Under the pieces are notes generated by a model, which searched no databases, was not told the DNA's origin, and saw only the letters and a program-made list of their open reading frames with translations. The position numbers and the translations under genes were made by a program. Positions 13,834 to 49,893 of a DNA stretch of 64,000 bases are shown here, piece by piece (the first letter of the stretch is position 1; every line of letters starts with the position of its first letter). Source of the stretch: Planctomycetes bacterium syqfu (GTDB lineage: Bacteria > Planctomycetota > Phycisphaerae > Phycisphaerales > Phycisphaeraceae); assembly GCA_020974905.1 (NCBI GenBank), contig CP087563.1, positions 5,332,001 through 5,396,000 of the forward strand, given 5' to 3'.

Positions 13834-15255
13834 TCACATGGGTCTGGACGATCTTCTCCGGCAGCTTTGTGCATTGGATAACGGGCAGCATTCATGCACG
13901 CGTTGTCTTAGCTGTTGGTAAAGCTGCCACGATGGATCGCTGTATTTGTTCGGATCCTGACGCAGTGTTGCGACCCGTTGATCGGCCTGAATTTGTTTGT
14001 CCTCTCGGATTTGATGGGCACGTTGCTCATAGCCTTCATGGTCCAGACCCGCACGCTTGGCCAAACTTCCGAGCCATTGATGGGCATACTGCACGTGCAT
14101 GGTTTCGTCGATGATGTCATAAAGCATCATCTCGGCAGAGGCCAGATCGCCACCTTCTTTAAAATCCGAATAGGCTTCACGCTTGACCTTGAAATGCCCC
14201 GTTTCAGCCACCATGCCAATGAAGAAAAGCGCTTCGTACAAAGCTTTGGGTGGCATGACAGCCAATCGTTGCCCATCATCGGTTTGGTCGCGATCCCCAA
14301 GCAAGTCGCGTGAATGCTTAAACCCGACTTCCTGGATTGTGATGCCCAGTTCCTTCATGCGCGCGTAACCTGAATCACCATGGCGAGACTCGTCCCAGAG
14401 ATGCCGACTTTCGTCATATGCAAAAGCCCAGGGCATGTCCGGCGAATCGTAAATCCATAGCAGTCGGTTCATGGCCAAGCCTAATTCACGCATATAACCG
14501 ATGGGCCAGAACAATTGCCTTGCCTGAATCTCATCTGCAAAGTCCACAGCAATCCAATCCAGAATGTCATGCGCTCCCGTTGTCAGCCATGATGGATCAA
14601 CCTTCGCAGGCATGGGGCGAAAACTTGAATGCACACCGACAGGGGCAGCCGTTTGGGGTTCGGTCATTGGGATGGGCGCATGCAGGTGATCGAGCGATGC
14701 CAATTGCGCTGTGATGCAATCAAGGTAGTTTTGATTCGTATGATGGGCAATTCGTTGGCGATAGGAAGTCCGCCAGCGGCGCTGCATATCCTTGGTTGCC
14801 ACAATCTGGCGGATAATCTGATGGGACGGGCCATCGTGAATGGATGATACTTTTTCAATGAAATCCAGATAGGCATTAACAAGGGCAGTGTTGAGCACCT
14901 GGTAAATCCCGTCAACCGCATCTTCAAAACAGGGGGCGTTCAAGACTGTGTTGGCAAGTTCTTCAAGCTTCTGACTGACAGGTTGATCCGCATGAGCACC
15001 GGGGAATTGATCGATTCGCTGGTGCAGCGATTGGACGACGCAAGCTTGATCCCAAACGTGAGCACAAACGGCAACCTTGTCATCCCATGCATCAAATTGA
15101 TTGCCCCATCCGCAAAGCATCCGGTGAATGGATTGCTCCAGATAAGCCAGATCAACAAGACGTCGGACACTGTGCGGCACTTTGCTGGTATGCGGATCAA
15201 CCTGAACTTGGACCGATGTGTTTTGTGATGAGATGACAGTTGGGGCGGGGGACAT
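13834..15255 (-). CDS. ferritin-like (di-iron) domain protein in oxygenase position of cassette 1
   Basis: 473 residues. The C-terminal half carries several ExxH motifs in helical context: 'DESRH' (twice, nearly in tandem), 'AETGH' and 'DETMH'. These are the pattern of carboxylate-bridged di-iron proteins of the ferritin-like superfamily. I do not recognise the exact family. The N-terminal 200 residues are helical and unassigned. It is downstream of a UroD-fold gene (38-base gap) in a two-gene operon divergent from an AraC regulator, the place taken by a phytanoyl-CoA-dioxygenase-family gene in the other cassettes. An oxygen-activating role is therefore a reasonable inference; storage or hydrolase roles remain possible. 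Confidence 0.65.
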   Translation of the reverse strand: MSPAPTVISSQNTSVQVQVDPHTSKVPHSVRRLVDLAYLEQSIHRMLCGWGNQFDAWDDKVAVCAHVWDQACVVQSLHQRIDQFPGAHADQPVSQKLEELANTVLNAPCFEDAVDGIYQVLNTALVNAYLDFIEKVSSIHDGPSHQIIRQIVATKDMQRRWRTSYRQRIAHHTNQNYLDCITAQLASLDHLHAPIPMTEPQTAAPVGVHSSFRPMPAKVDPSWLTTGAHDILDWIAVDFADEIQARQLFWPIGYMRELGLAMNRLLWIYDSPDMPWAFAYDESRHLWDESRHGDSGYARMKELGITIQEVGFKHSRDLLGDRDQTDDGQRLAVMPPKALYEALFFIGMVAETGHFKVKREAYSDFKEGGDLASAEMMLYDIIDETMHVQYAHQWLGSLAKRAGLDHEGYEQRAHQIREDKQIQADQRVATLRQDPNKYSDPSWQLYQQLRQRVHECCPLSNAQSCRRRSSRPM

Positions 15256-15293
15256 TGTCGTTTCTCCATGAGGGGGTGTTATGTAAAGTCGAA

Positions 15294-16421
15294 TCAGGTG
15301 GTATGACTCACCTGGTTTGCCAGTTGCTCGCTGAGTTGCTTGCGGACTTTGAGGTAGTGTTCCAGATGGTCGATGGGAATGTCGTGGGTGATCTGGCCAC
15401 CGATATTGACAACGAAGTGGGACGCTTGAGCACCGATCGATAAACAGCGGTTGACTTCGTCGGTGATCCGTTCCAATGGACCTGCAGCGATGATGTGGCT
15501 GTTCATGTTGCCAATGAGAATTTTCTCCGGATAGTTCTCGACCAGGTAAGACAGATTAACCATGTATTCAAAGTTCAAGCCATCGGCACCCGCTGCAAAG
15601 ATGTCATCGACAAAAGCATTGATGTTGCCATCCGAGGTGAAAATGATCGGGATACCTGCCTGTTTGAGGGGTTCAAAGATTCGCGGGTAGTGTTTGAAAA
15701 TATGCTGACGATACCAATCAGGGGCAAAAATCGGGCCACCGGTCATCGCCAGATCATCGTGGAGAATAAAGCCCTCCACATCGGGGACCTGCGACCATGC
15801 TGTGGTGATGCGGGTGGATATCTCGACAAAACGTTCCATGAGTTGGTCGAACCGATCTTCTTCCAGACCTGCTTCACAGAGCAATTCAAAACCAAAGATG
15901 GCAAGCGGCCAATGAAAAGCAGTGGTGTAGTGATGGGGTATCGGCAGGCAGGTCTTGCCACAGCTCTGGCGCATGCGTTGGTAGTCTGCGGTAAATTGCT
16001 CACGGTATTGTTCGACTGTTTTTGGGAAGTAGGTTGATGGCTCAAATGCCAATGCCGCATCGACATTCTTGGGCTTGGGGACATGGGTGAAGTGCCGTCC
16101 ATCCTCCTGGTGAGCCGCGCCGAAAATCCCCCATTGCACGACGTCAAGACCTTGCGCATTTTGTTTGACGGTCTGCCCGTCCGCCCAATCGAAAATATCC
16201 CGTGTACTGTCAGGCAAGCCCCCGCCCCATAGCAGATCAACATCAAAGATTTCAGCCAGTCTTAAAAAGGCTTCATTGACGCGGTGGCGTTCCTTGACCG
16301 GATTGATTTGCGTTAAATACGTGATCGCTTCACAGGAAATCCCGCTGAGATGTTCCATAACAGGCAGGCGACCGTGACGCGTCTGTCCACGTAACAAGCT
16401 CAATCCCTTTTCCAAACTCAT
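15294..16421 (-). CDS. UroD-fold methyltransferase-like protein, cassette 1
   Basis: About 375 residues of the uroporphyrinogen-decarboxylase superfamily (the group that includes MtaA/CmuA methyltransferases). The barrel signatures include 'LHDDLAMTGGPIFAPDWY' and 'IIFTSDGNINAFVDDIFAAG', where the zinc-type HxCG loop of MtaA is replaced by TSDG. No matching cysteine is seen near the C-terminus ('VNIGGQITHDIP'). The ATG at 16421 follows GGAG with a 6-base gap; an ATG four codons upstream (16433) is the alternative. It is the first gene of a two-gene operon with the ferritin-like protein. It is not expected to act in haem synthesis. Substrate unknown. Confidence 0.85.
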   Translation of the reverse strand: MSLEKGLSLLRGQTRHGRLPVMEHLSGISCEAITYLTQINPVKERHRVNEAFLRLAEIFDVDLLWGGGLPDSTRDIFDWADGQTVKQNAQGLDVVQWGIFGAAHQEDGRHFTHVPKPKNVDAALAFEPSTYFPKTVEQYREQFTADYQRMRQSCGKTCLPIPHHYTTAFHWPLAIFGFELLCEAGLEEDRFDQLMERFVEISTRITTAWSQVPDVEGFILHDDLAMTGGPIFAPDWYRQHIFKHYPRIFEPLKQAGIPIIFTSDGNINAFVDDIFAAGADGLNFEYMVNLSYLVENYPEKILIGNMNSHIIAAGPLERITDEVNRCLSIGAQASHFVVNIGGQITHDIPIDHLEHYLKVRKQLSEQLANQVSHTT

Positions 16422-16433
16422 TGCATGCTCCAT

Positions 16434-16576: not shown

Positions 16577-17401
16577 ATGAACCAGATCAGTCTATATCCA
16601 TTTAAGCTGTTCTTTGATGTGTTAAAAAGTGAAGTCAGAAAAATCGATCAGGAATGGGATGCCAGGGATGTCTGCAGCAGTTTCTGGCGATTGTATGTCA
16701 ATAACCGTGAAGGGGCAGTGATTCACCTGTCGAATGGGCAGCATTATCCATTGCAAGCCAAACGGGTTTACCTGGTTCCTGCGTGGGTTGGATTTACCTG
16801 TGAAAATGTCAGACCCCTTGAACATTTTTATATACATTTTGATTTGGCCGGTTTGCCCGGCGCCCTGGTCCGTCAGCTTTTCCCCCTGCCAATTGTTTTG
16901 TCTCCGACTCGATTACTGTCTGGGGTGTTGCGACAAGCCAAGGCTGCGGTTCTTGACCGTCAACTTGATCCGATGATCCAAGCGATGCAAATACTCACTT
17001 TGCTGCATCACGCGATGGGAGCAGCTTGGGCGCAACTGGATCAACAACAACAGGCACACTGTATGTTCGCACTTGAAGGTACGCATGTGTTTGCTGATAT
17101 TTTGAAGTTTATTGATGAGCATTTATCGGATGATTTGAATAACACACGTCTTGCCAAGCGATGTCACTTAAGTCGCGATCACTTTGTTCGCCGTTTTACC
17201 CAACAGATTGGCCAGACACCCGCACAGTATGTTCGTGAGAAGCGTGTGACGCGCGGGGCTCAGCTGTTGCATCTGGAATCAATGAGTATCGAATCGATCG
17301 CCCATGCGTGTGGGTTTGCTGACCGGTTCCATTTTTCTCGTGTTTTTGTGCAAATGATGGGAGCGCCACCTGCTGCCTACCGTCAAGGTAAACGGGTTTG
17401 A
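16577..17401 (+). CDS. AraC-family transcriptional regulator, cassette 1
   Basis: 274 residues. An N-terminal ligand-binding domain with a beta-rich pattern (about 1-160) is followed by a C-terminal double helix-turn-helix (about 175-272, 'RLAKRCHLSRDHFVRRFTQQ' and 'ESIAHACGFADRFHFSRVF'). It is transcribed away from the UroD/ferritin-like operon and probably activates it in response to a small substrate. Its 3' end overlaps the next regulator, on the opposite strand, by 19 bases. Confidence 0.92.
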   Translation: MNQISLYPFKLFFDVLKSEVRKIDQEWDARDVCSSFWRLYVNNREGAVIHLSNGQHYPLQAKRVYLVPAWVGFTCENVRPLEHFYIHFDLAGLPGALVRQLFPLPIVLSPTRLLSGVLRQAKAAVLDRQLDPMIQAMQILTLLHHAMGAAWAQLDQQQQAHCMFALEGTHVFADILKFIDEHLSDDLNNTRLAKRCHLSRDHFVRRFTQQIGQTPAQYVREKRVTRGAQLLHLESMSIESIAHACGFADRFHFSRVFVQMMGAPPAAYRQGKRV

Positions 17402-18258
17402 CGATAGTCTTCCTGCGTGTAACGTTTGCGGTAGATTCTGGGTGTGCAACCTTTGATACGTGCAAAAATGCGATTGAAATTTGAGAGAGTGCCAAAGCCG
17501 TTACGGTAGCAGATATCGGTGATGGGTTCGTCACTTTCAATGAGTTGCCGGCAAACATGGCCGATGCGCAACTGGTGCATGTAGTTGACGAAACTCTGCC
17601 CCGTCATCTGTCGGAAGTACCGTGCAAAGGCTGTTGGGTTCATAGAGACCACCTCAGAGGCATCTGGCAAACCAATGGGCTGATCGTAATTCTGATGAAT
17701 GAACGCATAGAGTTTTTCCATGCGGTTGCGATCCTGTGGCCGAGTGACCTGGGCAAACGTCGGGGAAGCCAGCTCACGGACTTTGCGACAGCCAGCCAGT
17801 CGATCAAGCACATTGAGAAAAGCCGTCAACCGTTGCATCGGTGGCAGGTATTCCATGGCCTGCATTTGCTTGCCGGTTTCAATGGCAGTCGGACCTGAGA
17901 AAACAAGGCCACATCCGCAACGTTTAAGAAGTCTTGATACCCGGCGCATCTCCGGCAGAGATTCAAAAGCCTGACCTGTGAATTGCGGGAGAAACTGAAT
18001 CACCACCGACTCCACCGACCTCTTCATTGGCAGGCTATGCCAGGTGTGTGGCAGGTTAGAGCCCAGAAGCACCAGATCGTTTTCCGCAAACGGTTCAACA
18101 TGATCACCCACATACCGATTGCCTTTGCCGGTTGCAATCCATGTCAGTTCAAGTTCGCGATGGATATGCCAGACAAACGGGAAGGTTTTCTGCTGAAACT
18201 TGCGGTAAACAAAGCCATGATTGTCATCCGTCTGCAGGGCTTCAACTTTCGGTAACAT
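17383..18258 (-). CDS. AraC-family transcriptional regulator, cassette 2
   Basis: About 291 residues. The N-terminal cupin-like domain includes 'FPFVWHIHRELELTWIATGK' and 'LVLLGSNLPHTWHS', typical of sugar-sensing AraC proteins. The C-terminal double HTH spans about 190-290. The ATG at 18258 has GGGAG 7-8 bases upstream; a start at 18285 would add nine residues with no ribosome site. It is divergent from the PhyH-UroD-UroD operon and is its likely regulator. Confidence 0.92.
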   Translation of the reverse strand: MLPKVEALQTDDNHGFVYRKFQQKTFPFVWHIHRELELTWIATGKGNRYVGDHVEPFAENDLVLLGSNLPHTWHSLPMKRSVESVVIQFLPQFTGQAFESLPEMRRVSRLLKRCGCGLVFSGPTAIETGKQMQAMEYLPPMQRLTAFLNVLDRLAGCRKVRELASPTFAQVTRPQDRNRMEKLYAFIHQNYDQPIGLPDASEVVSMNPTAFARYFRQMTGQSFVNYMHQLRIGHVCRQLIESDEPITDICYRNGFGTLSNFNRIFARIKGCTPRIYRKRYTQEDYRQTRLP

Positions 18259-18421
18259 CGTGTAACTCCCAAGCGTGATAAACAATCATTGCATTATTTT
18301 TGAAAATATCAACAAATGCGCATCAATTGTATCAATATCAGCGCCGATTCCAGTAGCAGTTTGCATCTCAGACAGATATTGTTTTGCTCAACACCTCATT
18401 TAACCTCACAGGAGTCCCGCC

Positions 18422-19261
18422 ATGACCACGAACTTGACACAACAGGCATCACTATTGGATCAATCCTATGACTTGACCGATGAGCATATCAAGCAGTTTC
18501 GCGATGATGGTTTTATCAAACTCAAGTCGTTTTATGACGCTCAGACGTTGGATCACTATGCGCCAATTCTCACCGACCTGACGTTGTCGCATAACCCCAA
18601 CAAGGATGTGTCACTGGATCAGCGTAACACGTATGGCAAAGCTTTTATTCAGGTAGGCAATCTATGGGAGATGGATAAAGAGGCCAGGGCGTTTGCCTTT
18701 TCCAGGCGTGCTGCCCAGGTGGCTGCGAAACTGCTGGGTGTCCGTGGCGTTCGCATGTGGCATGACCAGGCGTTGTACAAGGAGCCTTCCGGCGGATTCA
18801 CACCCTGGCATGCCGACGAACAGTATTGGCCGTTTGACTCCGCCAAGTGTTTGACGGTTTGGATCCCACTGCAGGAGACACCCATTGAGATGGGGCCATT
18901 GAGTTTTGCTGCCAGTTCGCATTTGAAGCGCATTGGTCGTGAACTGGCGATCAGTGATGAATCTGAAAAGCGCATTGGTGAAGCCGTCAAGCAGGAGGGG
19001 CTCCGCGAAGTTTATGAACCTTACGATCTTGGGGAAGTGTCCTTCCATTATGGCTGGACGTTGCACCGAGCTGGCCCGAACACCACGGACATGCCACGCA
19101 AAGTTTTTACCGTTATTTACATGGACATGGATATGAAGCTGGCACCCAAGACACCGACACACCGTAATGATTGGGCGTCCTGGACACCTTCCACGCATGT
19201 GGGGCAGGTCCTTGATGACCCGAAGAATCCGATCCTTTATCAAGATGGACAATACGAATGA
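18422..19261 (+). CDS. phytanoyl-CoA dioxygenase (PhyH) family protein, cassette 2
   Basis: 279 residues of the Fe(II)/2-oxoglutarate PhyH family. The facial triad is visible: His130 and Asp132 in 'PWHADEQYW' and distal His215 in 'TLHRAGPN'. Arg226 in 'MPRKVF' probably binds the 2-oxoglutarate carboxylate. Such enzymes hydroxylate an unactivated C-H bond, and hydroxylation of an N- or O-methyl group releases formaldehyde. AGGAG precedes the ATG by 8 bases. Its stop overlaps the start of the next gene (ATGA), so the two are translationally coupled. The substrate cannot be read from the sequence. Confidence 0.92.
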
Positions 19262-20295
19262 TGACACCACGCACGGTTGTGAAAATGGCACTTGAAGGCG
19301 AAAAACCGCCATACGTCCCTTGGTCTTTTTCCTTTACCAAGGAGCCAGCAGACATACTCAAGGAACACTACGGTGTCGATGAGCTTGATGATGTGTTGGG
19401 CAATCATGTACTGCCGCTGGGCAGTTCGATTGGTTTCTTTGAAGACATGGGCAACAACCGCGTGCGTGATGTGTTTGGCGTTGTCTGGGATCGAACCCAT
19501 GACAAAGACATCGGGATGGTCGAAGGGCAGGTATTGTCTGAGCCCACGCTCAAGGGGTTTGATTTACCTGACCCGCAGGACGATCGCTTTTTTGAGGATA
19601 TTGAAAGTCGGATTGAAAAGTCACCGGATCGATTTCGCCTGTATTCCATTGGGTTTTCACTCTTTGAACGCGCGTGGACTTTGCGTGGCATGGAGGACCT
19701 GATGTATGACATGATCGAGAATCCCAACTTTGTTCATGATCTGCTTGATGCCATTTGTGATTACAACATCGTGCAGGTCAACCGTGCGTTGACGTATGAC
19801 ATTGACGGAATTTACTTCGGCGATGACTGGGGGCAGCAGCACGGTTTGATCATGGGGCCGGACATGTGGCATGAGTTTATTTACCCGCGCATCAAGCGCA
19901 TGTATGCCACCACGCGATCCGCAGACAAGTATCAGTTCATTCATTCCTGTGGCGATGTCGACGATCTGTTTGATGACCTGATGGACATCGGCTTGAATTG
20001 TTTTAATCCATTCCAACCCGAGGTCATGGACATCTATGCTTTGCATCAGCAGTATGCTGGACGATTGAGTTTCTGGGGAGGCTTGTCGATGCAGAATATC
20101 CTTCCCTTCGGGACCGTGGATGATGTCCGTGCTGAGAGTGCACGTTTACTTGAGATGGGACGTAAAGGCAGCTACATTTTTTCGCCATCACACGCCGTCG
20201 AAGGCGACACACCCTTGGAGAACATGCTCGCATTCATTGACATGGCGCAGCAACAGGAAGGTTACAAACAACTGACAGGAGTATCGGCACGATGA
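19258..20295 (+). CDS. UroD-fold methyltransferase-like protein with HxCG loop, cassette 2 (first)
   Basis: 345 residues. The MtaA/MtbA-type zinc loop is present as '[10 protein letters not shown]' (His-x-Cys), but the usual distal cysteine position reads '[15 protein letters not shown]', with histidine in its place. The upstream barrel motif '[20 protein letters not shown]' is well conserved. The likely role is methyl transfer between a substrate and a corrinoid protein, by analogy with MtaA/CmuA. ATGA overlaps at both ends link it to the dioxygenase before it and a second UroD-fold gene after it. Confidence 0.88.
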
Positions 20296-21296
20296 ACGGA
20301 TACGATCGCTACCATGCCATGCTCCACGGTGAAGCTGTGGATTACCTGCCACGCATCCCGATTCTGATGCAGTATGCAGCGGAGTATATCGGTTCAAACT
20401 ACGCAGCCTTTGCATCGGACTATCGCGTGTTGGTTCAGTCCAATGTGACGTGTGCGAGGGACTTTGGCATTGACCAGTTCAACACCATGTCCGATCCATA
20501 CCGTGAGACGCAGGGGTTTGGTGGCGTGATCACGTATCTGGAAAATTCACCGCCACGCTGCACACATCCGCTGGCTGATGATCCGGATATCTCACGTTTG
20601 GACAAACCCGATCCGTTGTCTTCGACGCGCATGTTTGATCGCGTGCAAGCGATTAGACATTATCGTCAAGGACACGGAGAAACGCACTCGGTCATGGGTT
20701 GGGTGGAAGGTCCTGCTGCGGAAGCTGCAGATTTGCGTGATGTCTCCAACTTCATGATGGATTTACTGGACGATGAAGACTATGTCTGTGCGTTGATGGA
20801 TCGATGTGTTGCTGTCGCCATTGACTTTGCCCAGGCGCAGGTTGATGAAGGTGCAGACACCATTGGTATCGGTGATGCCGTGGCCAGCCAGGTTTCACCG
20901 GACATTTATCATCGTCTGATTCAACCCCGTGAGAAAGTACTGGTTGAAGCGATTCAAAACATGGGGGCGGTTGCGCGATTGCATATCTGTGGCAATATCA
21001 CGCATCTGCTCCCGGGCCTTGCTGATTTGCATGTGGATATTCTTGATGTCGATCACATGGTCGATATGGCCAAGGTTCGTCAAGCCGTGGGTAGAAAGGT
21101 CTGTCTTGCTGGCAATCTCGATCCGGTCAACGATGTGATGCGCAGCAACCCCGATCAGATCCATCAGCAGTTTACTGAGATTTACCATCAGGTCGGCAAT
21201 CCCTTCATGGTCAATGCCGGCTGCGAAATACCATCAGGTACACCGGTTGAAAATCTCAAAGCAATCTGCAAGCCCATTGCCTATGTTGGATCATGA
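20292..21296 (+). CDS. UroD-fold methyltransferase-like protein with complete HxC...C set, cassette 2 (second)
   Basis: 334 residues. It carries '[14 protein letters not shown]' (His-x-Cys) and a distal cysteine in '[14 protein letters not shown]'. These together match the zinc ligand set known for MtaA/MtbA methylcobamide:thiol methyltransferases, so this is the best candidate in the array for a classical corrinoid-linked methyltransferase. The thiol acceptor is unknown. It overlaps the previous stop by 4 bases and ends overlapping the convergent AraC gene by 6 bases. It is the only cassette with two tandem UroD-fold genes. Confidence 0.9.
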
Positions 21297-22124
21297 ACGC
21301 CGGATGGCAGAGGGCGTCTGCCCGGTGACATGCTTGAATTGCCGACTGAAGAAATAGACATCGTTGTACCCAAGCACATCCGCAATGCGTGTGATCGACC
21401 AATCCGTTTCCAGTAACAGGTCTTTGGCGCGACCAATGCGCGCTTCCATGAGATGGCGTTGTGGTGAGACCCCCATGACCTGCTTGAACACGCGCGAAAA
21501 ATGGGCGGGCGAGTAGCCAGCAAGATCAGCCAACGCTTCAATGCTCGACACATCCTGTGGGGATGCTGTCATGTCTGCTGCCATTTGGGTGATCACACTG
21601 CGATGCATGTGATCCGTCGGTGACAGATTGGTGCTGGGTGTGTTTGCCTGATAATGCACTTCCATGAGTAATGCCTGCATCATCGTCCGGGCTGTGTTTG
21701 CAGCTTGAAGCGCCGTGTCGCCAGTGGTTGATTCGCTTGCCTGGCGCAGTCGGGCGATGGTGCGCATGGTGCTGGTGACAGCGGGTATGTCAGGCATGTA
21801 CACGATCTCCGGCGGCAGGTCGCCGTCTCGTGGACGTTTTAAAGTTCGCTTATCCATCAAATCAAAATGTTGCGCGCTGACGCCAAGTCGGTTGGTGATA
21901 TCCTGCTGTGCATCATAAATCCCGCCGGGGCGCATCCAGACACAAATGCCCGGATGTAACTGGATCTGGCGGTCACGTAGATGCATGATGCCCTGGCCGG
22001 CCCAGATAAACCAGAGATCGTAATCGTCGAGATTCTCGGAAAAAGCACGTGGCAAGTCCCAGCCGACTTCGCATCGGACATGGTTGGAGCGATCCAGCGT
22101 CAGACTCAGTTGATCCCAGTCCAT
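21291..22124 (-). CDS. AraC-family transcriptional regulator, cassette 3
   Basis: 277 residues. The N-terminal cupin-like domain (about 30-90, 'GQGIMHLRDRQIQLHPGICVWMRPG') is followed by a C-terminal double HTH (about 175-275, ending 'YNDVYFFSRQFKHVTGQTPS'). It is divergent from the PhyH gene at 22235. It overlaps the 3' end of the preceding cassette. Confidence 0.92.
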   Translation of the reverse strand: MDWDQLSLTLDRSNHVRCEVGWDLPRAFSENLDDYDLWFIWAGQGIMHLRDRQIQLHPGICVWMRPGGIYDAQQDITNRLGVSAQHFDLMDKRTLKRPRDGDLPPEIVYMPDIPAVTSTMRTIARLRQASESTTGDTALQAANTARTMMQALLMEVHYQANTPSTNLSPTDHMHRSVITQMAADMTASPQDVSSIEALADLAGYSPAHFSRVFKQVMGVSPQRHLMEARIGRAKDLLLETDWSITRIADVLGYNDVYFFSRQFKHVTGQTPSAIRRS

Positions 22125-22234
22125 GCTGATATGATATCAAATCAGTGCAAAATACCGAAAATTAAATGCATGGATTGTTGATCTTTTCAGGCAATAATGT
22201 TTACAACCTCAAGAATCAATGCAAAGGGAAAAAC
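22125..22234. promoter_or_regulatory. divergent control region of cassette 3
   Basis: A perfect 13-bp dyad, TGATAT-G-ATATCA, lies at 22127-22139, three bases from the AraC start. Such a position would suit autorepression. The rest is AT-rich promoter-like sequence; I cannot place the boxes with certainty. Confidence 0.4.
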
Positions 22235-23077
22235 ATGCCTGCCATTCAAATGGATCACAATCAAGCACAGGACTACGATGCATCGCTTTACCGTGCTGAT
22301 TCTGTCGCAACCCCTGCCTGCCAATGGGAAGAACTGTCCGTTGAGTTGTTTGAACGGACGGGCTATCTTGCCCTGGCCAATGCGTTATCCTCCCAGCAGG
22401 TTCACGATGCTCGGGAGGGATTATCAGCCCTGATTCGTGGGCAAGTGCCTGATTATGATCAGGTTCAGTTTGAAGGATTGACGTCTACGGAGATTGATGT
22501 TTTAACGCCGGATCAGCGTGAGTTACATGTCCGTCGGTTGATTGCTTTCTGCAAATTTGAAAAACGGTTGGATGCGATCATGCGCGATCCCAAGCTCCTT
22601 GCCATGGTCACGAAGTTGCTTGGTGATCGTGAGCCGATTTGTTTTCAGGAGATGGCATTGCTCAAGCCACCCAAGGGTCGCGAGAAGCCCTGGCATCAGG
22701 ACAATGCGTATTTTAATCTGGATAGCAGTGAGCCGGTGGTGGGGGTGTGGATCGCGCTGGATGATGCAACCCTGGAAAACGGTTGTATGCATGTACAGCC
22801 CGGTTCGCATCACCACGGTCCACATATTCACTTTAAGCGTCGGGATTGGCAGATATGTGATACCGACATCCTGGGCAATGCGATTACGGCTGTTCCCCTG
22901 GATGCTGGGGGGCTGATGTTTTTCAACGGGCTACTCTACCACGGCACACCGCATAATCCGACCAGGCAACGTCGACGCGCTTTACAGTTTCATTACTGTC
23001 CCAAGGATGCCAAATGGACCAACGAAGAAGCACGCCTTGCCTTGTTTGGTTCTGAAGGCAAAGACGTGAGCTGTTAG
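22235..23077 (+). CDS. phytanoyl-CoA dioxygenase (PhyH) family protein, cassette 3
   Basis: 280 residues. The iron ligands are His154 and Asp156 ('PWHQDNAYF') and distal His236 ('LLYHGTPHN'); an arginine in 'RQRRRAL' is the likely 2-oxoglutarate anchor. The conserved 'ENGCMHVQPGSHHHG' turn is typical of the family. The ATG at 22235 is preceded by AAAGGGA; the frame is open back to 22166, but the extra 23 residues are not family-like. It is followed after 72 bases by a UroD-fold gene. Confidence 0.92.
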   Translation: MPAIQMDHNQAQDYDASLYRADSVATPACQWEELSVELFERTGYLALANALSSQQVHDAREGLSALIRGQVPDYDQVQFEGLTSTEIDVLTPDQRELHVRRLIAFCKFEKRLDAIMRDPKLLAMVTKLLGDREPICFQEMALLKPPKGREKPWHQDNAYFNLDSSEPVVGVWIALDDATLENGCMHVQPGSHHHGPHIHFKRRDWQICDTDILGNAITAVPLDAGGLMFFNGLLYHGTPHNPTRQRRRALQFHYCPKDAKWTNEEARLALFGSEGKDVSC

Positions 23078-35001: not shown

Positions 35002-35010
35002 GATGAGTTG

Positions 35011-40497: not shown

Positions 40498-40520
40498 GCA
40501 GTGCTTTAATGGGACACTGC
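40498..40520. promoter_or_regulatory. candidate operator dyad before the corrinoid reactivator
   Basis: GCAGTG and CACTGC are separated by 11 bases in the gap between the PocR-AraC gene and the reactivator gene. Regulatory use is inferred from position. If the reactivator starts at 40509 the dyad would lie partly inside it. Confidence 0.35.
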
Positions 40521-40538
40521 TGCGAATCCGAAAGTCTG

Positions 40539-42921: not shown

Positions 42922-43791
42922 TCAGTCATTGCGATTGGCTTGGCGATAATCTCTGGGACTCACGCCGATGATGCGCTTAAACAGTCTGGAAAAATAGTAG
43001 GCATCATCATAGCCAACCGCTTGACCAACCAATCGGATGGGCGACGTGGTTTGTGTCAGCAGTGTGGCGGCACGAGTCATGCGTTGTTGAATCATGTAAT
43101 GCATCGGGCTGCTTCCGAAATGTTTTCGAAAGAGTCGGGAAAAATGGGTGACCGACAAGTGGTGTTCCTTTGCCAACATGTCGAGCGTAATGTTTTCAGT
43201 GAGATGTTGATGGATGTATTTTCGCAGTGCTGTGACATTGAGTTGATCACTGGGTTCGGTGGTTCGATGGTTTGCTTGCTTCCCAAGCAGGTGAATGACA
43301 CGTCCGAGCAAACCAGCTAACATCTGCCCGGTAAGAATGTCCTGGTTTTGGGGTGTGTCGCGATGACTGTGTTTAAACCCCATGGTCGCAGCCTGCAAAT
43401 CTTCAAATTGGTTGAGAAGATATTCATCATGACCCAGAAATGCCTGGAGTTGGCCATATTGGGTGATGGCGTCCATGTACTGTGATGCCAATTTGCCCCC
43501 AAAGTGAACCCAGTGAATATCCCACGGGTGGGTGGGACTGCTCCCATAGGCATGTTGTTTATCAGGTAAAAAATGAAGTAAATGTCCCGCAGAGGCTTCC
43601 ACGCGTTGCGCTCGCGTCTTGGCAAATCCCTGCCCGCCGACCACCCAGATAATCAGGTAGTCCGTTGCCTTTTTGCGTGATGCCAGATGGTCCGGCTGAT
43701 TGGAGAAGTGGCCCACCGAGTGAACCTGCAACCACTGGGCGATGGTGTCCGTCGGATTTTGGGGTTTGCCAAGCATGGCAAGATTGTCCAT
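42922..43791 (-). CDS. AraC-family transcriptional regulator, cassette 8
   Basis: 289 residues. The N-terminal sensor domain includes 'SAGHLLHFLPDKQHAYGSS' and 'WDIHWVHFGG', a pattern of sugar-responsive AraC proteins. The C-terminal double HTH spans about 185-285 ('MLAKEHHLSVTHFSRLFRKH', 'YDDAYYFSRLFKRIIGVSP'). It is divergent from the PhyH gene at 43885 and convergent with the reactivator gene, 22 bases away. Confidence 0.92.
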   Translation of the reverse strand: MDNLAMLGKPQNPTDTIAQWLQVHSVGHFSNQPDHLASRKKATDYLIIWVVGGQGFAKTRAQRVEASAGHLLHFLPDKQHAYGSSPTHPWDIHWVHFGGKLASQYMDAITQYGQLQAFLGHDEYLLNQFEDLQAATMGFKHSHRDTPQNQDILTGQMLAGLLGRVIHLLGKQANHRTTEPSDQLNVTALRKYIHQHLTENITLDMLAKEHHLSVTHFSRLFRKHFGSSPMHYMIQQRMTRAATLLTQTTSPIRLVGQAVGYDDAYYFSRLFKRIIGVSPRDYRQANRND

Positions 43792-43884: not shown

Positions 43885-44751
43885 ATGACAGATCAACTGA
43901 TTTCAAACTTCAAACTCACAGAAGAACAATGCGCTCAATGGGAGTCCGATGGCTATCTGATTGTCCGAAGACTGTTTGATACTCATCAGGTTGAGCAACT
44001 CAAACAAACCATGCAGGACATTGCCGACAAGGGTGATGCTGTGCCGGGTTGGCAGCCATTGATTGATGTCAAGCAGTATGACACGGAAGTGGTCGATGCG
44101 GACCATCTGGGGGATGTCCTCAAGCGTTATCCCCGATTCCTGCATCCGCATCGTTATCTGGATTTGCCTCGCGAGATGATGCTTGACCCGCGCGTGCATG
44201 ATGTGCTGTTACAGATCACCGGTGTTCAACCGGTTGCCTGTCAGAGTATGTATTACTTCAAGCCCTGTGGCGCCAAGGGGCAGGCCTTGCACCAGGATAA
44301 TCTTTATCTGCAGGTCGAGCCCAACACCTGTTATGCAGCTTGGACAGCGATCGATCCGGTGACCCCTGAAAATGGTGGCCTGTATGTCGTGCCCGGTTCG
44401 CATACGCTGGATACGCAGTGCCCGACGCTTGCTGACCAGACGCAGAGCTTTACCACCGCGCTGGTCGATGTCCCCAAAGGCATGAAAGCCATCCCGACGG
44501 TGATGGAGCCCGGCGATGTGCTGTTTTTCAATGGTCAGATTATCCATGGCTCAGGTATGAATCGATCCAAGACCCTTTGGCGTCGCTCGTTTATCTGTCA
44601 CTACATGCCCAAAACCAGCCAATGCGTCAGCAAGTATTATTTCCCTATCGTCGGCTTTGATGGCAGTGAACTGACTTACGAAGCAAGTCAGGCAGGCGGG
44701 CCCTGCGGTGAAGAATTCAAAGACAAGATCCCAAGTTCCTACAGCAATTAG
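43885..44751 (+). CDS. phytanoyl-CoA dioxygenase (PhyH) family protein, cassette 8
   Basis: 288 residues. The triad is His136 and Asp138 ('ALHQDNLYLQ') and His221 ('IIHGSGMN'); Arg233 or Arg234 ('LWRRSF') would bind 2-oxoglutarate. 'PENGGLYVVPGSHTLD' is the family turn. The longer loop between ligands than in cassettes 2 and 6 suggests a different substrate. Leader sequence CAGGAGTCCCCGCC-ATG almost repeats that of cassette 2. UroD partner follows after 8 bases. Confidence 0.93.
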   Translation: MTDQLISNFKLTEEQCAQWESDGYLIVRRLFDTHQVEQLKQTMQDIADKGDAVPGWQPLIDVKQYDTEVVDADHLGDVLKRYPRFLHPHRYLDLPREMMLDPRVHDVLLQITGVQPVACQSMYYFKPCGAKGQALHQDNLYLQVEPNTCYAAWTAIDPVTPENGGLYVVPGSHTLDTQCPTLADQTQSFTTALVDVPKGMKAIPTVMEPGDVLFFNGQIIHGSGMNRSKTLWRRSFICHYMPKTSQCVSKYYFPIVGFDGSELTYEASQAGGPCGEEFKDKIPSSYSN

Positions 44752-44759: not shown

Positions 44760-45899
44760 ATGACCACGTCCACCACACTCACAGATCGACAGCGATTCAT
44801 GGATCACATGCACTATCGCACGCCGGATCGTTATCCACTTTACGACTTTAATTTCTGGGATGAGACGATTCCCGCCTGGTATGAACAGGGGCTTGATCGC
44901 AAATGGACGCGACGGAATATTCACCAGCTCTTTGGATTGGATGCCAGTCTTGGGGGTGGGGATAACACGGCGGTACAGAATATCAGGACGAATATCGGTC
45001 TTCTGCCGGAGTTTGAATATCAGGTGCTTGAAGACCTTGGTGATGAGCAGATTGTTCGGCAGTCCGATGGAGCGCTTGTCCGTCAGCATAAACATCACGT
45101 CTCCATCCCGCCGCATGTTGGTCATACCTTGGTGGATCGTGACAGTTGGAAAGAGCATTACCTGCCCAAACTCCAGGCGGATGATCCTGCGCGGTTTTGT
45201 GATGATTGGGATGCGCACGTTGCTCAACATACCAGGCCGGACCGCGATTATGTGTTGCAGGTCTATGCAGGCAGTATGTTCGGCCGACTGCGCGACTGGA
45301 TGGGGATGGAGAACATTGCTTTGGTTCCCTATGACGATCCTGCCTGGTTTGAGGAGATGGTGACCACCATGGGTGATATTGCCATCGCCACATTGACCAA
45401 GGTTTTCGAATCAGGTCTGAGGCCTGAGTGGTGTCACATGTGGGAAGACATGTGCTACAACTCAGGCCCGCTGCTTGGGCCGGATCACTTCAAGCAGTAT
45501 CTCGTCCCGCAGTACCGCCGGATTACCGAGTTGTGCAATCGGTATGGCTGTGACATTGTCAGCGTTGATTGTGATGGGAAGATTGATGCACTGTTACCTC
45601 ATTGGCTGGATGCGGGTGTCAACTGCATGTTCCCGGTTGAGATTGGCAACTGGGCGGACCCCATTGCACTCCGCCAGGAGTTTGGAAAAGAGCTGCTGAT
45701 GATGGGCGGCTTTGATAAACACATTCTCGCCCAATCGCCCCAGGCCATTGATGATGAAATCGCACGCCTCACCCCCTTGGTCGAAGAAGGTGGTTTTATC
45801 CCGTTTTGTGATCACCGTGTCCCACCGGATGTGCCGTTGGTTCATTATGAATTTTACTGCCAGCGTGCTGGTCAAGTCTGGGGTAAGCGGCTAAAGTAA
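44760..45899 (+). CDS. UroD-fold protein with DCDG loop, cassette 8
   Basis: 379 residues. The zinc-loop position reads 'SVDCDGKIDALL' and the distal position 'FCDHRVPPDVPL'. A cysteine is present in both, but offset from the His-x-Cys pattern, so metal binding is uncertain. It is similar in layout to the cassette 3 and 4 proteins ('DHRxPxxV' motif). The core 'EDMCYNSGPLLGPDHFKQYL' is well conserved. AGAGG precedes the ATG by 5-6 bases. Second gene of a three-gene operon. Confidence 0.88.
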   Translation: MTTSTTLTDRQRFMDHMHYRTPDRYPLYDFNFWDETIPAWYEQGLDRKWTRRNIHQLFGLDASLGGGDNTAVQNIRTNIGLLPEFEYQVLEDLGDEQIVRQSDGALVRQHKHHVSIPPHVGHTLVDRDSWKEHYLPKLQADDPARFCDDWDAHVAQHTRPDRDYVLQVYAGSMFGRLRDWMGMENIALVPYDDPAWFEEMVTTMGDIAIATLTKVFESGLRPEWCHMWEDMCYNSGPLLGPDHFKQYLVPQYRRITELCNRYGCDIVSVDCDGKIDALLPHWLDAGVNCMFPVEIGNWADPIALRQEFGKELLMMGGFDKHILAQSPQAIDDEIARLTPLVEEGGFIPFCDHRVPPDVPLVHYEFYCQRAGQVWGKRLK

Positions 45900-45944: not shown

Positions 45945-46907
45945 ATGAACGAATCTCCCGCTTTCGTTGCTGACAAATATCGATGGCATGAACACTGGGC
46001 GACGCTGCCCGACACACCGCAGGCAAAGGAAAACGGTCGGACACATGGCGTGTGTGTGCGCAACGATGGTGCTGTCGTTGTCTTCGCGCAGACCGTCGAT
46101 GGTCTGCTGACATATGACCCGGACGGCAAGCTCATCTCAGCTGTTGGCGGTGAACGTTGGTTAGGCGCACATGGTCTAACCAAAATTGTCGAAAACGGCA
46201 CGGAGTATCTCTGGCTATGCGATCAGGACTCAGCCGAAGTCGCCAAGGTCACCATGGATGGGCAAACCGTCCAGAAACTCCCCAAGCCTGAGCATGCCCT
46301 GTATCACGGCGATGATGCCAAACGCTATGTCCCCACGTGGGCGGCGCAGCATCCAGTGACCGGCGAGATCTGGTTGGCCGATGGCTATGGCGCATCACTG
46401 GTGCATCGCTTTTCAGCGACCGGTGAACAACTCCAATCCTACGACGGCACCGAAGGCGCAGGGCGTTTTGCCTGTCCGCATGGTTTGAACTTCCGAACCA
46501 CAACCGATGGCAAAGTTGAACTGTTCATCACCGACCGCGGCAACAAGCGCATCGTCATTTACGATGACAACGGCAATCTCCTGCGTCAGTCCGATGTGAC
46601 ACACAGTCCTTGCTGCTTTGACTTCCTGCACAACTGGGTTTTGGTCCCTGAACTTTCCACGGGGGCCAAAGTACTTGACGCGGATTCGCTGGCATGCCTG
46701 GGGGAAATCGGTGTCGCATCATGGGCAGGCAAAGCGCCGGACTACGCGCATAATCCCCCCGAAGGTTGGCCCAATCTTGCGGGAACTCAGCACGTCAAGG
46801 CTGGTGCGTTTAACAGTCCGCACGGTGGCTGCTTCGGACCCAACGGTGATATCTACATCGTCGAATGGATCATCGGCGGACGCATTACCAAACTGCAATG
46901 TCAATAA
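45945..46907 (+). CDS. NHL/SMP-30-like six-bladed beta-propeller protein, cassette 8
   Basis: 320 residues without a signal peptide. Repeated blade motifs of the NHL/SMP-30 type are visible: 'GRTHGVCVRNDGAVVVFAQ', 'GEIWLADGYGASLVHRFSAT', 'ITDRGNKRIVIYDDNGNLL' and 'HGGCFGPNGDIYIVEW'. SMP-30-type proteins are often lactonases that need a divalent metal, and others only bind ligands. It is the third gene after PhyH and UroD (45-base gap), and no other cassette has one. It could hydrolyse a lactone made by the upstream oxygenase, but this is a guess from context. Confidence 0.82.
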   Translation: MNESPAFVADKYRWHEHWATLPDTPQAKENGRTHGVCVRNDGAVVVFAQTVDGLLTYDPDGKLISAVGGERWLGAHGLTKIVENGTEYLWLCDQDSAEVAKVTMDGQTVQKLPKPEHALYHGDDAKRYVPTWAAQHPVTGEIWLADGYGASLVHRFSATGEQLQSYDGTEGAGRFACPHGLNFRTTTDGKVELFITDRGNKRIVIYDDNGNLLRQSDVTHSPCCFDFLHNWVLVPELSTGAKVLDADSLACLGEIGVASWAGKAPDYAHNPPEGWPNLAGTQHVKAGAFNSPHGGCFGPNGDIYIVEWIIGGRITKLQCQ

Positions 46908-46952: not shown

Positions 46953-48005
46953 TTACGACGATTGCAACACGCCATATTCGTGAATGGTTTCGTACATCGC
47001 CACAATGTTCTCCGTCGGACTCACCGGCTGGATGTTGTGACATGGACTGCAAATCCAGCGTGTGCTTGCGTAGATGTCGATCGACTCCTTGACCTCGTCG
47101 ATCACTTCCTGCACTGTCCCGAACGGCAGGGTGTGTTGGTTATCAATCGAGCCATGGAAGATGATGTGTTTACCAAAGTCTCGCACCAGGCTTTCGCGTT
47201 CCATGCCCGGGCATTTCCATTGGATCGGGTTAAGCAGTTCAATCCCCACCTTGTCAATCAAGTCCGGCAGGAAGACTCTGGCTGCACCATCCGTGTGATA
47301 CATGATGTGAATGCCATAGCTCCGCGCCAGGTCCGCCATCTTGATCTGGTTGGGCAAAAGGAATCGGCGGTAGGTCTCAAGCCCCATCAGCGGGCCGGTC
47401 TGCGAACCCAGATCTTCAGCGATGTATGTTACATCCACCAGGCCCTTACCCGCTTCAAACAGTCGGCGATTGTACTCATAGTGAAACTCAAAAAGATGTG
47501 TGAGGATCGCATCAGCAATCTCCGGCTCAAGCAGTAAATCTTCAAAGCCTTTTTCCAACCCGCGTAAATGGGCATAAATCAGAAAAGGTTCAAAACACCC
47601 GAGTGTCATGGGATATTCCGGCGAATGCTTTTCAAGGTCGCTGCGGACTTTGGAAAAATCAAAGTCATCAACACTCGGCCATGGGTAGGCATCAATCTCG
47701 GCGGTGCTGGTCATGGCTGCCAGTGGATTCGTCACTGCTTCTCGGTAGGAACCTGTCCCGTAGTCGACATCCCGATACTGCACGCCCCAGATGTCCGTGT
47801 CCTCGGGGAGATGCTTTTTGTGCACGGCGTTGGCTGACTTGCGTTTGTCGATGTTGAGCTTCCGCCAGACCTCGTTCTCATCCTTGCATTGCAGGTCGGT
47901 GATCAATCGCTCGGTGACTTCTGCAGTGGATTGATAGTCGGTGGGGATGCGGTCAGGGGTCTGGTTATTGAGCAGTGCCAGCCAGCGTTCACGGGGTGTC
48001 ATCAT
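46953..48005 (-). CDS. UroD-fold protein with HTDG loop and distal cysteine, cassette 9
   Basis: 350 residues. The loop is 'HIMYHTDGAARVF' (His kept, Asp for Cys), while the distal site is 'ICSPCHNIQPVSPTEN', with cysteine as in classical members. It is thus intermediate between the two classes seen in the array. The core 'EDLGSQTGPLMGLETYRRF' is conserved. It lies 6 bases after the PhyH stop on the same strand. Confidence 0.88.
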   Translation of the reverse strand: MMTPRERWLALLNNQTPDRIPTDYQSTAEVTERLITDLQCKDENEVWRKLNIDKRKSANAVHKKHLPEDTDIWGVQYRDVDYGTGSYREAVTNPLAAMTSTAEIDAYPWPSVDDFDFSKVRSDLEKHSPEYPMTLGCFEPFLIYAHLRGLEKGFEDLLLEPEIADAILTHLFEFHYEYNRRLFEAGKGLVDVTYIAEDLGSQTGPLMGLETYRRFLLPNQIKMADLARSYGIHIMYHTDGAARVFLPDLIDKVGIELLNPIQWKCPGMERESLVRDFGKHIIFHGSIDNQHTLPFGTVQEVIDEVKESIDIYASTRWICSPCHNIQPVSPTENIVAMYETIHEYGVLQSS

Positions 48006-48011: not shown

Positions 48012-48917
48012 TTACCTTTGGGATGTGGTGGCAAGTTTCTCAACCTGCCACGCATTGGGTTTGGGGTTGGTATGTGTATGACCCATGGGATTCATGCCAA
48101 CCCAACGTTCGTCGATGGGGTCGGCTGCAGGTTGGAAACGTGTATCACAACTGATCCGCCATTGGTTGGTGGTGTTGGTGGTTGACGCGTGCATCGCATG
48201 CATGCCAAAGAGAATCACATCGCCGGGTTCGAATGTGGTGGTCTGCCATTGACCGCCGTATTCACGGGCGATTCCCAGCAGGTCATGTGTGAAATGGCCA
48301 CTGGTCCCGTCGCGGTCGACATCACTTTTGCCATAGGTGTTGCGGAGTTTTTCGAATGACGCCATGTTGTGTGATCCGACCAGCATTGCCAGTGTGCCTT
48401 GTTCGGGTGTAAGTCTGCCAAAGGGCGTCCAGATGGTATGCAGGCGTTCTGAGCCGCGTCCCATGTAGACATAGTCGTAGTGCGCAGCGGTTCCAGCGTT
48501 CTTACCGACCGCGCGAAGCCACTTGTAGTCAAACGTTCTTGGGGTTTGTCCAAAGTAGGTGTTGAAAAAATCAAACACGCGCTGACCTTCGAGCACGGCT
48601 TTGACATCAGGGTGATGCGTGATGTCGGTCTTGCCCATCATGTTCGGCGCTTTGCTGCCATCAGCAATCTTGCCGTCTAACAGTGGTGCGTTGGTATCGA
48701 GGCATTGGGTTTGATCGCGCATGTGTTCGAGGATGGTTTGCCGAGCCTTGAGTACGACCTTCGGATCATGGAGTTGTCGGACCAGCAGGTAGCCGTCTTC
48801 TGCCATGCGATCATGCAAAGCGTTTGCATCACCCAGCAGGTCATTGCAGTCGCGCAGGTCGGTGCCCAGTTCGTTTGATCCAAGTTCCACTTCGTTGAGT
48901 CCAAATGTGACGGTCAT
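48012..48917 (-). CDS. phytanoyl-CoA dioxygenase (PhyH) family protein, cassette 9
   Basis: 301 residues. The triad is His146 and Asp148 ('AAHYDYVYMG') and His243 ('MHAMHAST'); Arg254 in 'QWRISCD' is the likely cosubstrate anchor. The HYD variant and 'PEQGTLAMLVGSHN' turn place it away from the HQD members. AAGGA precedes the ATG by about 8 bases. First gene of the cassette 9 operon, divergent from the AraC gene. Confidence 0.91.
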   Translation of the reverse strand: MTVTFGLNEVELGSNELGTDLRDCNDLLGDANALHDRMAEDGYLLVRQLHDPKVVLKARQTILEHMRDQTQCLDTNAPLLDGKIADGSKAPNMMGKTDITHHPDVKAVLEGQRVFDFFNTYFGQTPRTFDYKWLRAVGKNAGTAAHYDYVYMGRGSERLHTIWTPFGRLTPEQGTLAMLVGSHNMASFEKLRNTYGKSDVDRDGTSGHFTHDLLGIAREYGGQWQTTTFEPGDVILFGMHAMHASTTNTTNQWRISCDTRFQPAADPIDERWVGMNPMGHTHTNPKPNAWQVEKLATTSQR

Positions 48918-49035
48918 GGCGGGTTCCTTTTTCCTGAAAGTTCATGAGGTTGACATGATTGTTGCCAGAAGAACTTGCTTTGACCATGCATTGGCTGGAC
49001 AATAACTTGTATCTTTTGGAAATCAGACACCACTT

Positions 49036-49893
49036 ATGAAGCAAATTAAACCGCAATCCTGGTTTCGCGTCCGTCATGCCGTTTCATCGGAGATTGGCAG
49101 CATCTCGCAAGCCGGTTACCTGCCGGACAGTCGGGGGATTGGTGATTCAACTATGCGCGTTTTGGGCGAGTATGCCGTGGTGTTCCTGCTGGCAGGAAGC
49201 GGGCATTATGCCGACGCCAATGGCATCGCATCGGTGATCACACCCGGTGATATGATCCTGGTGTTTCCCGACCTGCCGCATCGCTATGGGCCGGGGCCTG
49301 ATGAGCATTGGACGGAGATGTACCTGGTGTTCAACGGGCCGGTGTTTGCACTTTGGGATGAGAAAGGTTTGCTTGATCGAGCCAATCCCGTGATGCATTT
49401 GGAGCCTTTGGATTATTGGGCCAAACGGTTTGAGTCGATTCTCGGTGCGCCACATGAAGCTGGGCACGCGCCACCTTTGCTTGAAGTCTGTCGATTGCAG
49501 GAAGTCCTGGCAGAGATTGTGACCGGTTCATCCCATGCGTACTCTCAGCATGATGCGACAGACAGTCAGTGGCTCAGTCATGCCTGCATGTTATTGGAAA
49601 CCGATCTTGCCAACCGCAGACATCCCTGGCAGGTGGCTGATCATTTGGACATGGACTACGAACGCTTCCGCAAACGCTTCACACAGTTGATGGGTATCCC
49701 GCCTGCACGCTTTCGCAACAATCGCATCATCGACCGTGCCTGTGAGATGATGCAGAGTTCGTCACTGTCCGACAAACAGATTGCCTTGAGTCTTGGATTC
49801 TGTGATGAGTTCTATTTTTCCAAGCGGTTTAAGCAGTTGGTTGGTGTCACACCATCGGTCTTCCGCAGGCGATTGCCCCGTGCTCAGACATAA
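49036..49893 (+). CDS. AraC-family transcriptional regulator, cassette 9
   Basis: 285 residues. The N-terminal cupin-like domain ('GSGHYADANGIASVITPGDM', then 'VFPDLPHRYGPG') is followed by a C-terminal double HTH (about 190-283). It is divergent from the cassette 9 operon. It also lies 86 bases upstream of the sugar ABC transporter on the same strand, so co-transcription with the transporter is possible, which would tie cassette 9 to a sugar-like ligand. Confidence 0.9.
   Translation: MKQIKPQSWFRVRHAVSSEIGSISQAGYLPDSRGIGDSTMRVLGEYAVVFLLAGSGHYADANGIASVITPGDMILVFPDLPHRYGPGPDEHWTEMYLVFNGPVFALWDEKGLLDRANPVMHLEPLDYWAKRFESILGAPHEAGHAPPLLEVCRLQEVLAEIVTGSSHAYSQHDATDSQWLSHACMLLETDLANRRHPWQVADHLDMDYERFRKRFTQLMGIPPARFRNNRIIDRACEMMQSSSLSDKQIALSLGFCDEFYFSKRFKQLVGVTPSVFRRRLPRAQT

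Follow-up and report, generated by a model that had tools for sequence, protein, structure and literature searches.

The closest described counterparts of the gene island analysed here, nine AraC-regulated cassettes at positions 13834–49893 of a 64,000-nucleotide stretch of Planctomycetes bacterium syqfu (the window; 5332001–5396000 of a 7.38-Mb single-contig genome), are corrinoid-dependent methyl-transfer systems. In the passages of PMC13222342 that describe them, the O-demethylases Odm, Vdm and Mtv and the CdmBCA system combine a UroD-fold methyltransferase I (MTI) with a corrinoid protein and an activating enzyme, as the island does. The island is unlike them in that one corrinoid protein appears to serve at least nine MTIs, each accompanied by an AraC regulator and mostly by a PhyH protein, in lacking a recognisable tetrahydrofolate (H4folate) methyltransferase II, and in a clade, that of the cassette 4 protein U4, for which no PDB sequence relative is found at E up to 0.01. 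The type 1 mlp clusters, as presented in the relevant sections of PMC10418091, likewise hold several UroD-fold proteins, one corrinoid protein, one Ram/RACE activase and no H4folate methylase; their Mlps carry a His-Cys-Cys set (some Mlp1 excepted), are transcribed in one direction and are proposed to act on methyl-S/Se compounds. In the island, by contrast, His-Cys-Cys occurs only in U2b, the activator gene RACo lies on the strand opposite the corrinoid protein gene Cor, and PhyH and AraC genes are added. In aerobic roseobacters, reactivation of the corrinoid protein is ascribed to RamA-like proteins and, with less certainty, to DUF1638 proteins, and MtgBCD with RamA and DUF1638 resembles the island in its stand-alone corrinoid protein served by RamA-like/DUF1638 proteins, there in aerobic marine bacteria (PMC5764234, PMC12478193). 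The island departs from MtgBCD in its UroD-fold donors and in the fusion of DUF1638 with RACo, and the roseobacter passages of these two papers carry no mention of PhyH cassettes. No description of an AraC-PhyH-UroD cassette array was found in the open-licence papers searched.

Genes and families in the window were assigned by open reading frame (ORF) calling and Pfam; U denotes a UroD-fold protein, P a PhyH protein and A an AraC regulator, the number being that of the cassette, and L and G denote loci and genomes. The nine cassettes that an initial annotation had laid out from the letters alone are present, each comprising an AraC gene and an operon of which one or two genes are UroD-fold; the AraC gene, which the annotation had facing the operon, is divergent from it, and HTH_18 scores above its cut-off in all ten AraC genes of the span. 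The operons read U1-D1, P2-U2a-U2b, P3-U3, P4-U4, P5-U5, P6-U6, P7-U7, P8-U8 followed by an NHL-repeat gene, and P9-U9, with -4 to 114 bp between catalytic genes; besides the cassettes, the span encloses this NHL-repeat gene and a separate corrinoid module. The oxygenase that the annotation placed in every cassette is recognised in eight of the nine as a PhyH-family Fe/2-oxoglutarate (Fe/2OG) enzyme (Pfam E 2e-15 to 8e-41), but cassette 1 carries the weakly DUF455-like D1 in the PhyH position. UroD-fold genes occur in every cassette, ten in total, with the qualification that neither U5 nor U7 has a Pfam match, both being only remotely related. Of the gene-order flips read in cassettes 1, 5 and 9, the first stands, its UroD gene alone coming first, whereas cassettes 5 and 9 are each turned round as a complete unit and keep PhyH in front. 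PhyH and UroD each have 14 Pfam matches across the genome; the island, 36 kb of 7.38 Mb, holds eight of the former and nine of the latter (U5 and U7 escaping detection), a clustering that exceeds chance as judged from these raw counts, not from a formal null. A same-strand UroD gene adjoins 12 of the 14 PhyH genes, eight in the island and four elsewhere, with L006 and L007 lacking one; L001–L004 are complete AraC|PhyH-UroD triplets outside the island.

The locus is probably a corrinoid-dependent demethylation island, in which the UroD proteins would be substrate-specific methyltransferases using one corrinoid protein, Cor, reactivated by RACo. Its centre is the module between cassettes 7 and 8 (36082–42899), which consists of a CobW-type GTPase, the MtaA/CmuA-like protein MtA, Cor, the tenth AraC regulator (AC) and a DUF1638-RACo fusion. 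Cor comprises B12-binding_2 and B12-binding domains (E 7e-19 and 4e-28), shows the DLHDIG motif by eye, and matches MtbC/MtgC-type NCBIfam models below their cut-off. Two further B12-binding_2 proteins are found in the genome, one a 1204-aa frame of MetH size and the other a weakly matching 250-aa frame, so that a single stand-alone corrinoid protein of the Cor type is present for many UroD proteins. RACo, the reductive activator of corrinoid proteins, adjoins Cor on the opposite strand. MtA reaches 171 bits against TIGR01463 (cut-off 235.4), displays a CxxC tail by eye and has Phe at the His ligand position. No MtaB is found in the genome, which has two MTHFR matches.

Conservation of the island is directly observed: the whole order, central module included, is kept in the congeneric genomes G003 (53–94% identity) and G001 (69–96%). 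A contig of G002 (L024) holds a partial island with U5, P5, A5, A6, Cor, AC and RACo, in which MtaB adjoins a Cor of 83% identity and no PhyH or UroD gene of cassettes 6 and 7 stands between A6 and Cor. In other genera (G005, G010 and G018), DUF1638, RACo and a corrinoid protein of 62–65% identity adjoin U4-type UroDs (54–56%) without PhyH, and U8-type UroDs (52–54%) also lie beside the module in G010 and G018. An alignment scan of other genomes for the U4 clade retained the best 80 of 348 confirmed loci, some of which repeat one organism, so that the following adjacency counts, given without a null, are to be read accordingly. Within the fetched stretches, Cor, DUF1638 or RACo accompanies 39 of these 80, at least three UroDs 38 and PhyH six, the largest tandem array reaching 11 UroDs; among the 34 of at least 20 kb, 22 have a corrinoid-module gene, 23 at least three UroDs and three a PhyH gene. 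Two of the 80, L033 (isolate NAT22) and L034 (UBA7800), both Phycisphaeraceae/Phycisphaerales of the Planctomycetota, are the island itself in two congeners, on stretches that end before Cor. UroD tandem arrays beside the corrinoid protein, DUF1638 and RACo extend through Phycisphaerae, Opitutae and other groups, mostly without PhyH, and hold relatives of U3, U8, U9, U_L1 and U_L3 (about 45–60% identity), together with more distant relatives of U2a, U2b, U5 and U6 (about 25–42%). MtaB is present in seven of the 80 (two apparently one contig), and some arrays also contain MTHFR with DUF5981, a pterin-binding methyltransferase and a homocysteine S-methyltransferase; the array gene set is a recognisable corrinoid methyl-transfer set. 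Separately, the genes at L070/L217 (G059) are strung together much like an operon, in the order AC-Cor-MtaB-U8-U2a-MtA-U5-U6-CobW-U4 (types assigned from the best match); PhyH is absent, and the run may be a counterpart of the island that lacks it.

The association of UroD with RACo is equally direct in a survey of RACo, UroD and PhyH in 51 genomes of the family. RACo occurs in 19 of them, all with at least three UroDs; the 32 without RACo comprise 27 with no UroD, three with one, and G058 and G065 with 20 and 9. Two or more UroDs are found in 19/19 RACo-bearing versus 2/32 RACo-less genomes (Fisher p 4e-12, with relatedness and incompleteness ignored). PhyH occurs in 43 of the 51, many without RACo or UroD, and the family is therefore not tied to the corrinoid system. 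Because UroDs recur in tandem arrays with Cor, DUF1638 and RACo and co-occur with RACo, the likeliest role of the cassette UroDs is substrate-specific methyl transfer to a common corrinoid protein and not haem formation. The initial annotation had proposed a multi-substrate demethylation island, and that proposal gains support from the central corrinoid/RACo module and from the UroD arrays beside such modules, evidence that it did not itself contain.

The active sites bear on the probable substrates. A complete His-Cys-Cys set is present only in U2b among 15 cassette-type UroDs; U2b scores 158.8 bits against TIGR01463 (cut-off 235.4), and its three residues align with the His, Cys and Cys of Methanosarcina mazei MtaA (4ay7), which we take to be zinc ligands. 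His occupies the first ligand position in 12 of the 15, and Asp the second, HxC, position in 11, with U5 and U7 aligning unsurely; in U4 the candidate zinc site is His267, Asp269 and Asp350/His351. In the sections of PMC10418091 on this motif, His-Cys-Cys marks S-methyltransferases, O-methyltransferases having carboxylates or non-coordinating residues in place of Cys; since Asp replaces the zinc Cys in the same manner, the pattern points to O-methyl compounds as substrates of the cassette UroDs. As a separate observation, sulfatase, GH20 and SASA-type genes are found close to the L002 and L003 cassettes, and U_L5 (L005 4935–6251; 31% identity to U9) belongs to a sugar-type cluster that also contains ROK kinase, SIS, phosphotriesterase-like and xylose-isomerase-like genes. 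These neighbourhoods hint, weakly, at methylated sugars. No common theme is seen among ten neighbours of UroD-less PhyH genes.

In the proposed mechanism, each cassette UroD would act as an MTI, taking a methyl group off its substrate, likely an O-methyl compound, and placing it on the Co(I) form of Cor, with presumably one substrate per cassette. A single stand-alone Cor would carry the methyl group for all cassettes, DUF1638-RACo would re-reduce it to Co(I), and MtA, MtaA/CmuA-like with its CxxC tail, is the best candidate for passing the methyl group on. Expression of each cassette is probably controlled by the AraC regulator that it carries, and PhyH (or, in cassette 1, the unrelated protein) probably oxidises substrates of the class on which the UroD acts.

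Several observations weigh against this mechanism. A stand-alone pterin-binding methyltransferase is not found in the genome, PF00809 matching only the MetH-size frame and a 306-aa frame (286 bits) that is probably dihydropteroate synthase. U5 and U7 are remote UroD relatives of unsure alignment (hhalign U5-U4 E 6e-4, probability 30; U7-U5 E 7e-6, probability 85), and U1, U3 and U8 have no His at the first ligand position. The predicted structure of U4, a UroD-type barrel (pLDDT 93.6), lies about equally near HemE-type UroD (Z 27.9) and MtaA (Z 26.1), providing no discrimination. Neither G058 (70% complete) nor G065 (98% complete) has a RACo match despite their many UroDs, and of the 19 cassettes compared from outside the island L084 alone has a corrinoid-module gene in the fetched stretch, so that the other 18 would need a methyl carrier supplied in trans. 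G065 and these 18 cassettes would also suit a different account, in which the UroD-fold members catalyse decarboxylation or hydrolysis without a corrinoid, the corrinoid module being adjacent but functionally unconnected. Against it stand the co-occurrence of RACo and UroD, the tandem arrays with Cor and RACo, and the MtaA/CmuA-type profile matches, though these fall below cut-off; we regard it as improbable. Haem synthesis by the UroD members was rejected as a highly implausible function, in keeping with the annotation's view of them as something other than haem enzymes: the four proteins run against NCBIfam hemE (MtA 80, U2b 88.9, U4 24.3 and U6 20.7 bits) fall far short of the cut-off of 302.95, and a UroD match is absent from 27 of the 51 family genomes. 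What speaks for it is that the genome holds no UroD of HemE strength, yet has two COX1 matches and, by eye, a HemB-like frame (L004). Across the family, a UroD match above 300 bits occurs in only four of the 51 genomes.

Within the corrinoid-dependent reading, the role of PhyH can be envisaged in two ways. The two enzymes may act in sequence, PhyH hydroxylating or unmasking the substrate before the UroD demethylates it, or the reverse, with both needed. The operon spacing and the partner pairs kept outside the genus fit such a relay, but many genomes have either partner without the other, and we advance it tentatively, as a possibility short of an expectation. Alternatively, PhyH might oxidise the methyl group to formaldehyde with O2, with UroD and the corrinoid protein transferring it when O2 is scarce, which we consider unlikely. 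In other genera, RACo-less genomes included, P4- and P8-type PhyH genes stand with no UroD beside them, and U4- and U8-type UroDs occur beside a corrinoid protein without PhyH; because each type occurs alone, neither needs the other. The P2-U2a, P4-U4 and P8-U8 pairs recur outside the genus, and the genome has two COX1 matches. Countering this, PhyH and UroD share one operon and would be made together, PhyH enzymes mostly hydroxylate, and relatives at about 50% identity may differ in substrate. The full set of consequences, with one AraC sensing one methylated compound, the same methyl group stripped under oxic and anoxic conditions, and one Cor and one RACo for all anoxic branches, is accordingly doubtful.

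The PhyH proteins themselves resemble known Fe/2OG dioxygenases, their best PDB profile matches including phytanoyl-CoA dioxygenase 2a1x, EvdO2 4xab and EctD 3emr. In an alignment of the 12 cassette PhyH (two solitary ones left out), H134, H222 and R234 are present in all and D136 in 11, so that the HxD...H facial triad and the 2OG-binding Arg are kept in 11/12. The exception is P5, in which the iron-ligand Asp is replaced by Gly (HxG), as in three congeneric orthologues. HxG is the Fe/2OG halogenase pattern, and P5 may accordingly represent that pattern or an inactive enzyme. D1 matches DUF455 only (27.6 bits, cut-off 34.3), finds no PDB sequence match at E up to 1, yields a single-sequence structure model of pLDDT 37, and, among the loci compared, is matched by an orthologue in G001 and G003 alone.

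A leader element, ACCTCA(T/A), is found near the start of 12 of the 14 PhyH genes and in six of the 65 other upstream stretches compared (Fisher p 3e-8, for a motif picked by eye and post hoc), mostly 18–48 nt 5' of the annotated or next in-frame start. Its sites lie at window positions 25142, 29371, 34176, 43846, 45910 and 48943, and also at L002–L004, L006 and L007. The form ACCTCATG has six copies in the window, all 5' of cassette genes (five PhyH and one NHL, the latter at 45910), a count not clearly above chance (3.1 expected; six reached in 7 of 100 shuffles); for a longer form of the element the figures are 18 versus 14.7. Followed by AGGA, the element occurs at 22 distinct genomic places, seven of them at PhyH genes, versus one for the reversed control, and the other genes so marked are, by eye, pirin-, superoxide dismutase-, globin- and lipoprotein-like. 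It is a possible global promoter, leader or small-RNA site.

The history of the cassettes was followed through gene distances and neighbourhoods. The three genes of cassette 4 all have their copy in L002 (PhyH 74%, UroD 60% and AraC 64% identity), and L003 combines a UroD of their clade (47–51%) with an unrelated PhyH and AraC; other PhyH paralogues share 23–31% with their best match, some lower-ranked P_L3 matches reaching 32–33% over partial length. A sample of 60 UroD loci from 12 listed genomes of other genera, to which L159 and L160 were added from an earlier comparison and from which loci already compared were left out, shows an adjacent PhyH at 11 of 60. In line with the neighbourhood recurrence that the annotation proposed to look for, matching cassettes are found in other genera for cassettes 2 (L165, L194), 4 (L185) and 8 (L195), and for cassette 4 also in L084, a locus of a Phycisphaeraceae metagenome-assembled genome. 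L160 (G005) is a second small AraC-PhyH-UroD cassette array, in another genus and with other UroD types.

Congruence of the partners, the annotation's other proposed check, is depth-dependent. Over 27 cassettes, 19 of them outside the island (congeneric orthologues and L082, L093 and L095 excluded), PhyH and UroD distances correlate (Mantel r 0.59, p 1e-4), a value that rests on recent orthologues and on permutations ignoring relatedness; for the 25 with AraC, r is 0.71 for PhyH-AraC and 0.48 for UroD-AraC (both p 1e-4). Among the 11 deep cassettes of the genome itself the correlation is lost, with r -0.04 for PhyH-UroD, 0.18 for PhyH-AraC and -0.08 for UroD-AraC (p 0.56, 0.13 and 0.70), although distances at 20–30% identity are near saturation, so that weak old congruence could be missed. 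Partners are swapped at L114, L202 and L216 and, in the same genome, at L003. The idea that nine repeats descend from one ancestral cassette was dropped on this evidence, no gene pair showing congruence among the deep cassettes. Because distances agree over the 27 cassettes and not among the 11 deep ones, cassettes seem to move as units over short times and to have been assembled more than once. P4- and P8-type PhyH without an adjacent UroD occur in several other genera, some beside A4-/A8-like AraC genes, and support in the P4-/P8-type PhyH trees is too weak to count UroD gains or losses.

Table 1. Genes of the cassette island and its central module, in window coordinates.
Feature	Position	Strand	Evidence or remark
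D1, 473 aa, weakly DUF455-like, cassette 1, in place of PhyH	13834..15255	-	DUF455 below cut-off
U1 UroD-fold, cassette 1	15294..16433	-	PF01208 E 8e-18
A1 AraC regulator	16577..17401	+	HTH_18 E 3e-21
A2 AraC regulator	17383..18285	-	HTH_18 E 8e-22
P2 PhyH dioxygenase, cassette 2	18422..19261	+	PF05721 E 1e-22
U2a UroD-fold	19258..20295	+	PF01208 E 2e-22; 4-bp overlap with P2
U2b UroD-fold, MtaA/CmuA type	20292..21296	+	PF01208 E 8e-57; aligned to 4ay7
A3 AraC regulator	21291..22124	-	HTH_18
P3 PhyH, cassette 3	22166..23077	+	E 3e-32
U3 UroD-fold	23149..24270	+	E 9e-12
A4 AraC regulator	24252..25148	-	HTH_18
P4 PhyH, cassette 4	25160..26092	+	E 8e-41
U4 UroD-fold	26207..27337	+	Pfam and predicted structure, pLDDT 93.6
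U5 remote UroD relative, cassette 5	27300..28421	-	no Pfam match; hhalign
P5 PhyH, HxG instead of HxD	28418..29344	-	E 2e-20
A5 AraC regulator	29394..30302	+	HTH_18
A6 AraC regulator	30304..31182	-	HTH_18
P6 PhyH, cassette 6	31274..32122	+	E 1e-32
U6 UroD-fold	32138..33295	+	E 7e-21
A7 AraC regulator	33324..34139	-	HTH_18
P7 PhyH, cassette 7	34210..35001	+	E 1e-28
U7 remote UroD relative	35008..36072	+	no Pfam match; hhalign to U5 family
CobW-type GTPase, central module	36082..37065	-	PF02492 E 9e-38
MtA, MtaA/CmuA-like UroD domain with C-terminal CxxC stretch	36975..38372	-	PF01208 E 9e-61
Cor, corrinoid (B12-binding) protein, putative methyl carrier	38418..39230	-	PF02607 and PF02310
AC, tenth AraC-type regulator, central module	39254..40693	-	HTH_18 E 1e-23
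DUF1638-RACo fusion	40488..42899	+	PF07796, PF17651, PF14574 E 4e-70; PDB 3zyy E 4e-72
A8 AraC regulator	42922..43791	-	HTH_18
P8 PhyH, cassette 8	43885..44751	+	E 1e-37
U8 UroD-fold	44760..45899	+	E 4e-11
NHL-repeat protein, 3' of U8 on same strand	45945..46907	+	kept in G001 and G003
U9 UroD-fold, cassette 9	46953..48005	-	E 1e-19
P9 PhyH	48012..48917	-	E 2e-15
A9 AraC regulator	49036..49893	+	HTH_18

The surroundings of the island hold further genes. An ABC sugar transporter (49950–53560) was considered as part of the system; its binding protein adjoins the island in G001 but is not found in the post-island stretch of G003, and the transporter is therefore not counted. Further downstream, window positions 57952–60742 carry phosphonate-type ABC transporter genes and a 2-hydroxyacid dehydrogenase. 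At 3434–11347, near a 23S-5S rRNA end, lies a gene whose 2637-aa product combines FG-GAP, beta-helix, SdrD_B and cadherin-like domains.

Many of the planctomycete and verrucomicrobial genomes compared here are rich in UroD and PhyH genes, and to our knowledge most of these genes have no known function. The island connects the growth in UroD number with a single corrinoid/RACo module. It also suggests a plug-in arrangement: donor methyltransferases, many in number and each with a regulator and oxygenase of its own, would operate on one carrier. Its mix is unusual, with oxygen-using PhyH beside oxygen-sensitive corrinoid chemistry, and raises the question of why an O2-dependent dioxygenase would be co-expressed with Co(I) chemistry. 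If this reading is right, it would provide a functional hypothesis for many genes now labelled 'uroporphyrinogen decarboxylase family'.

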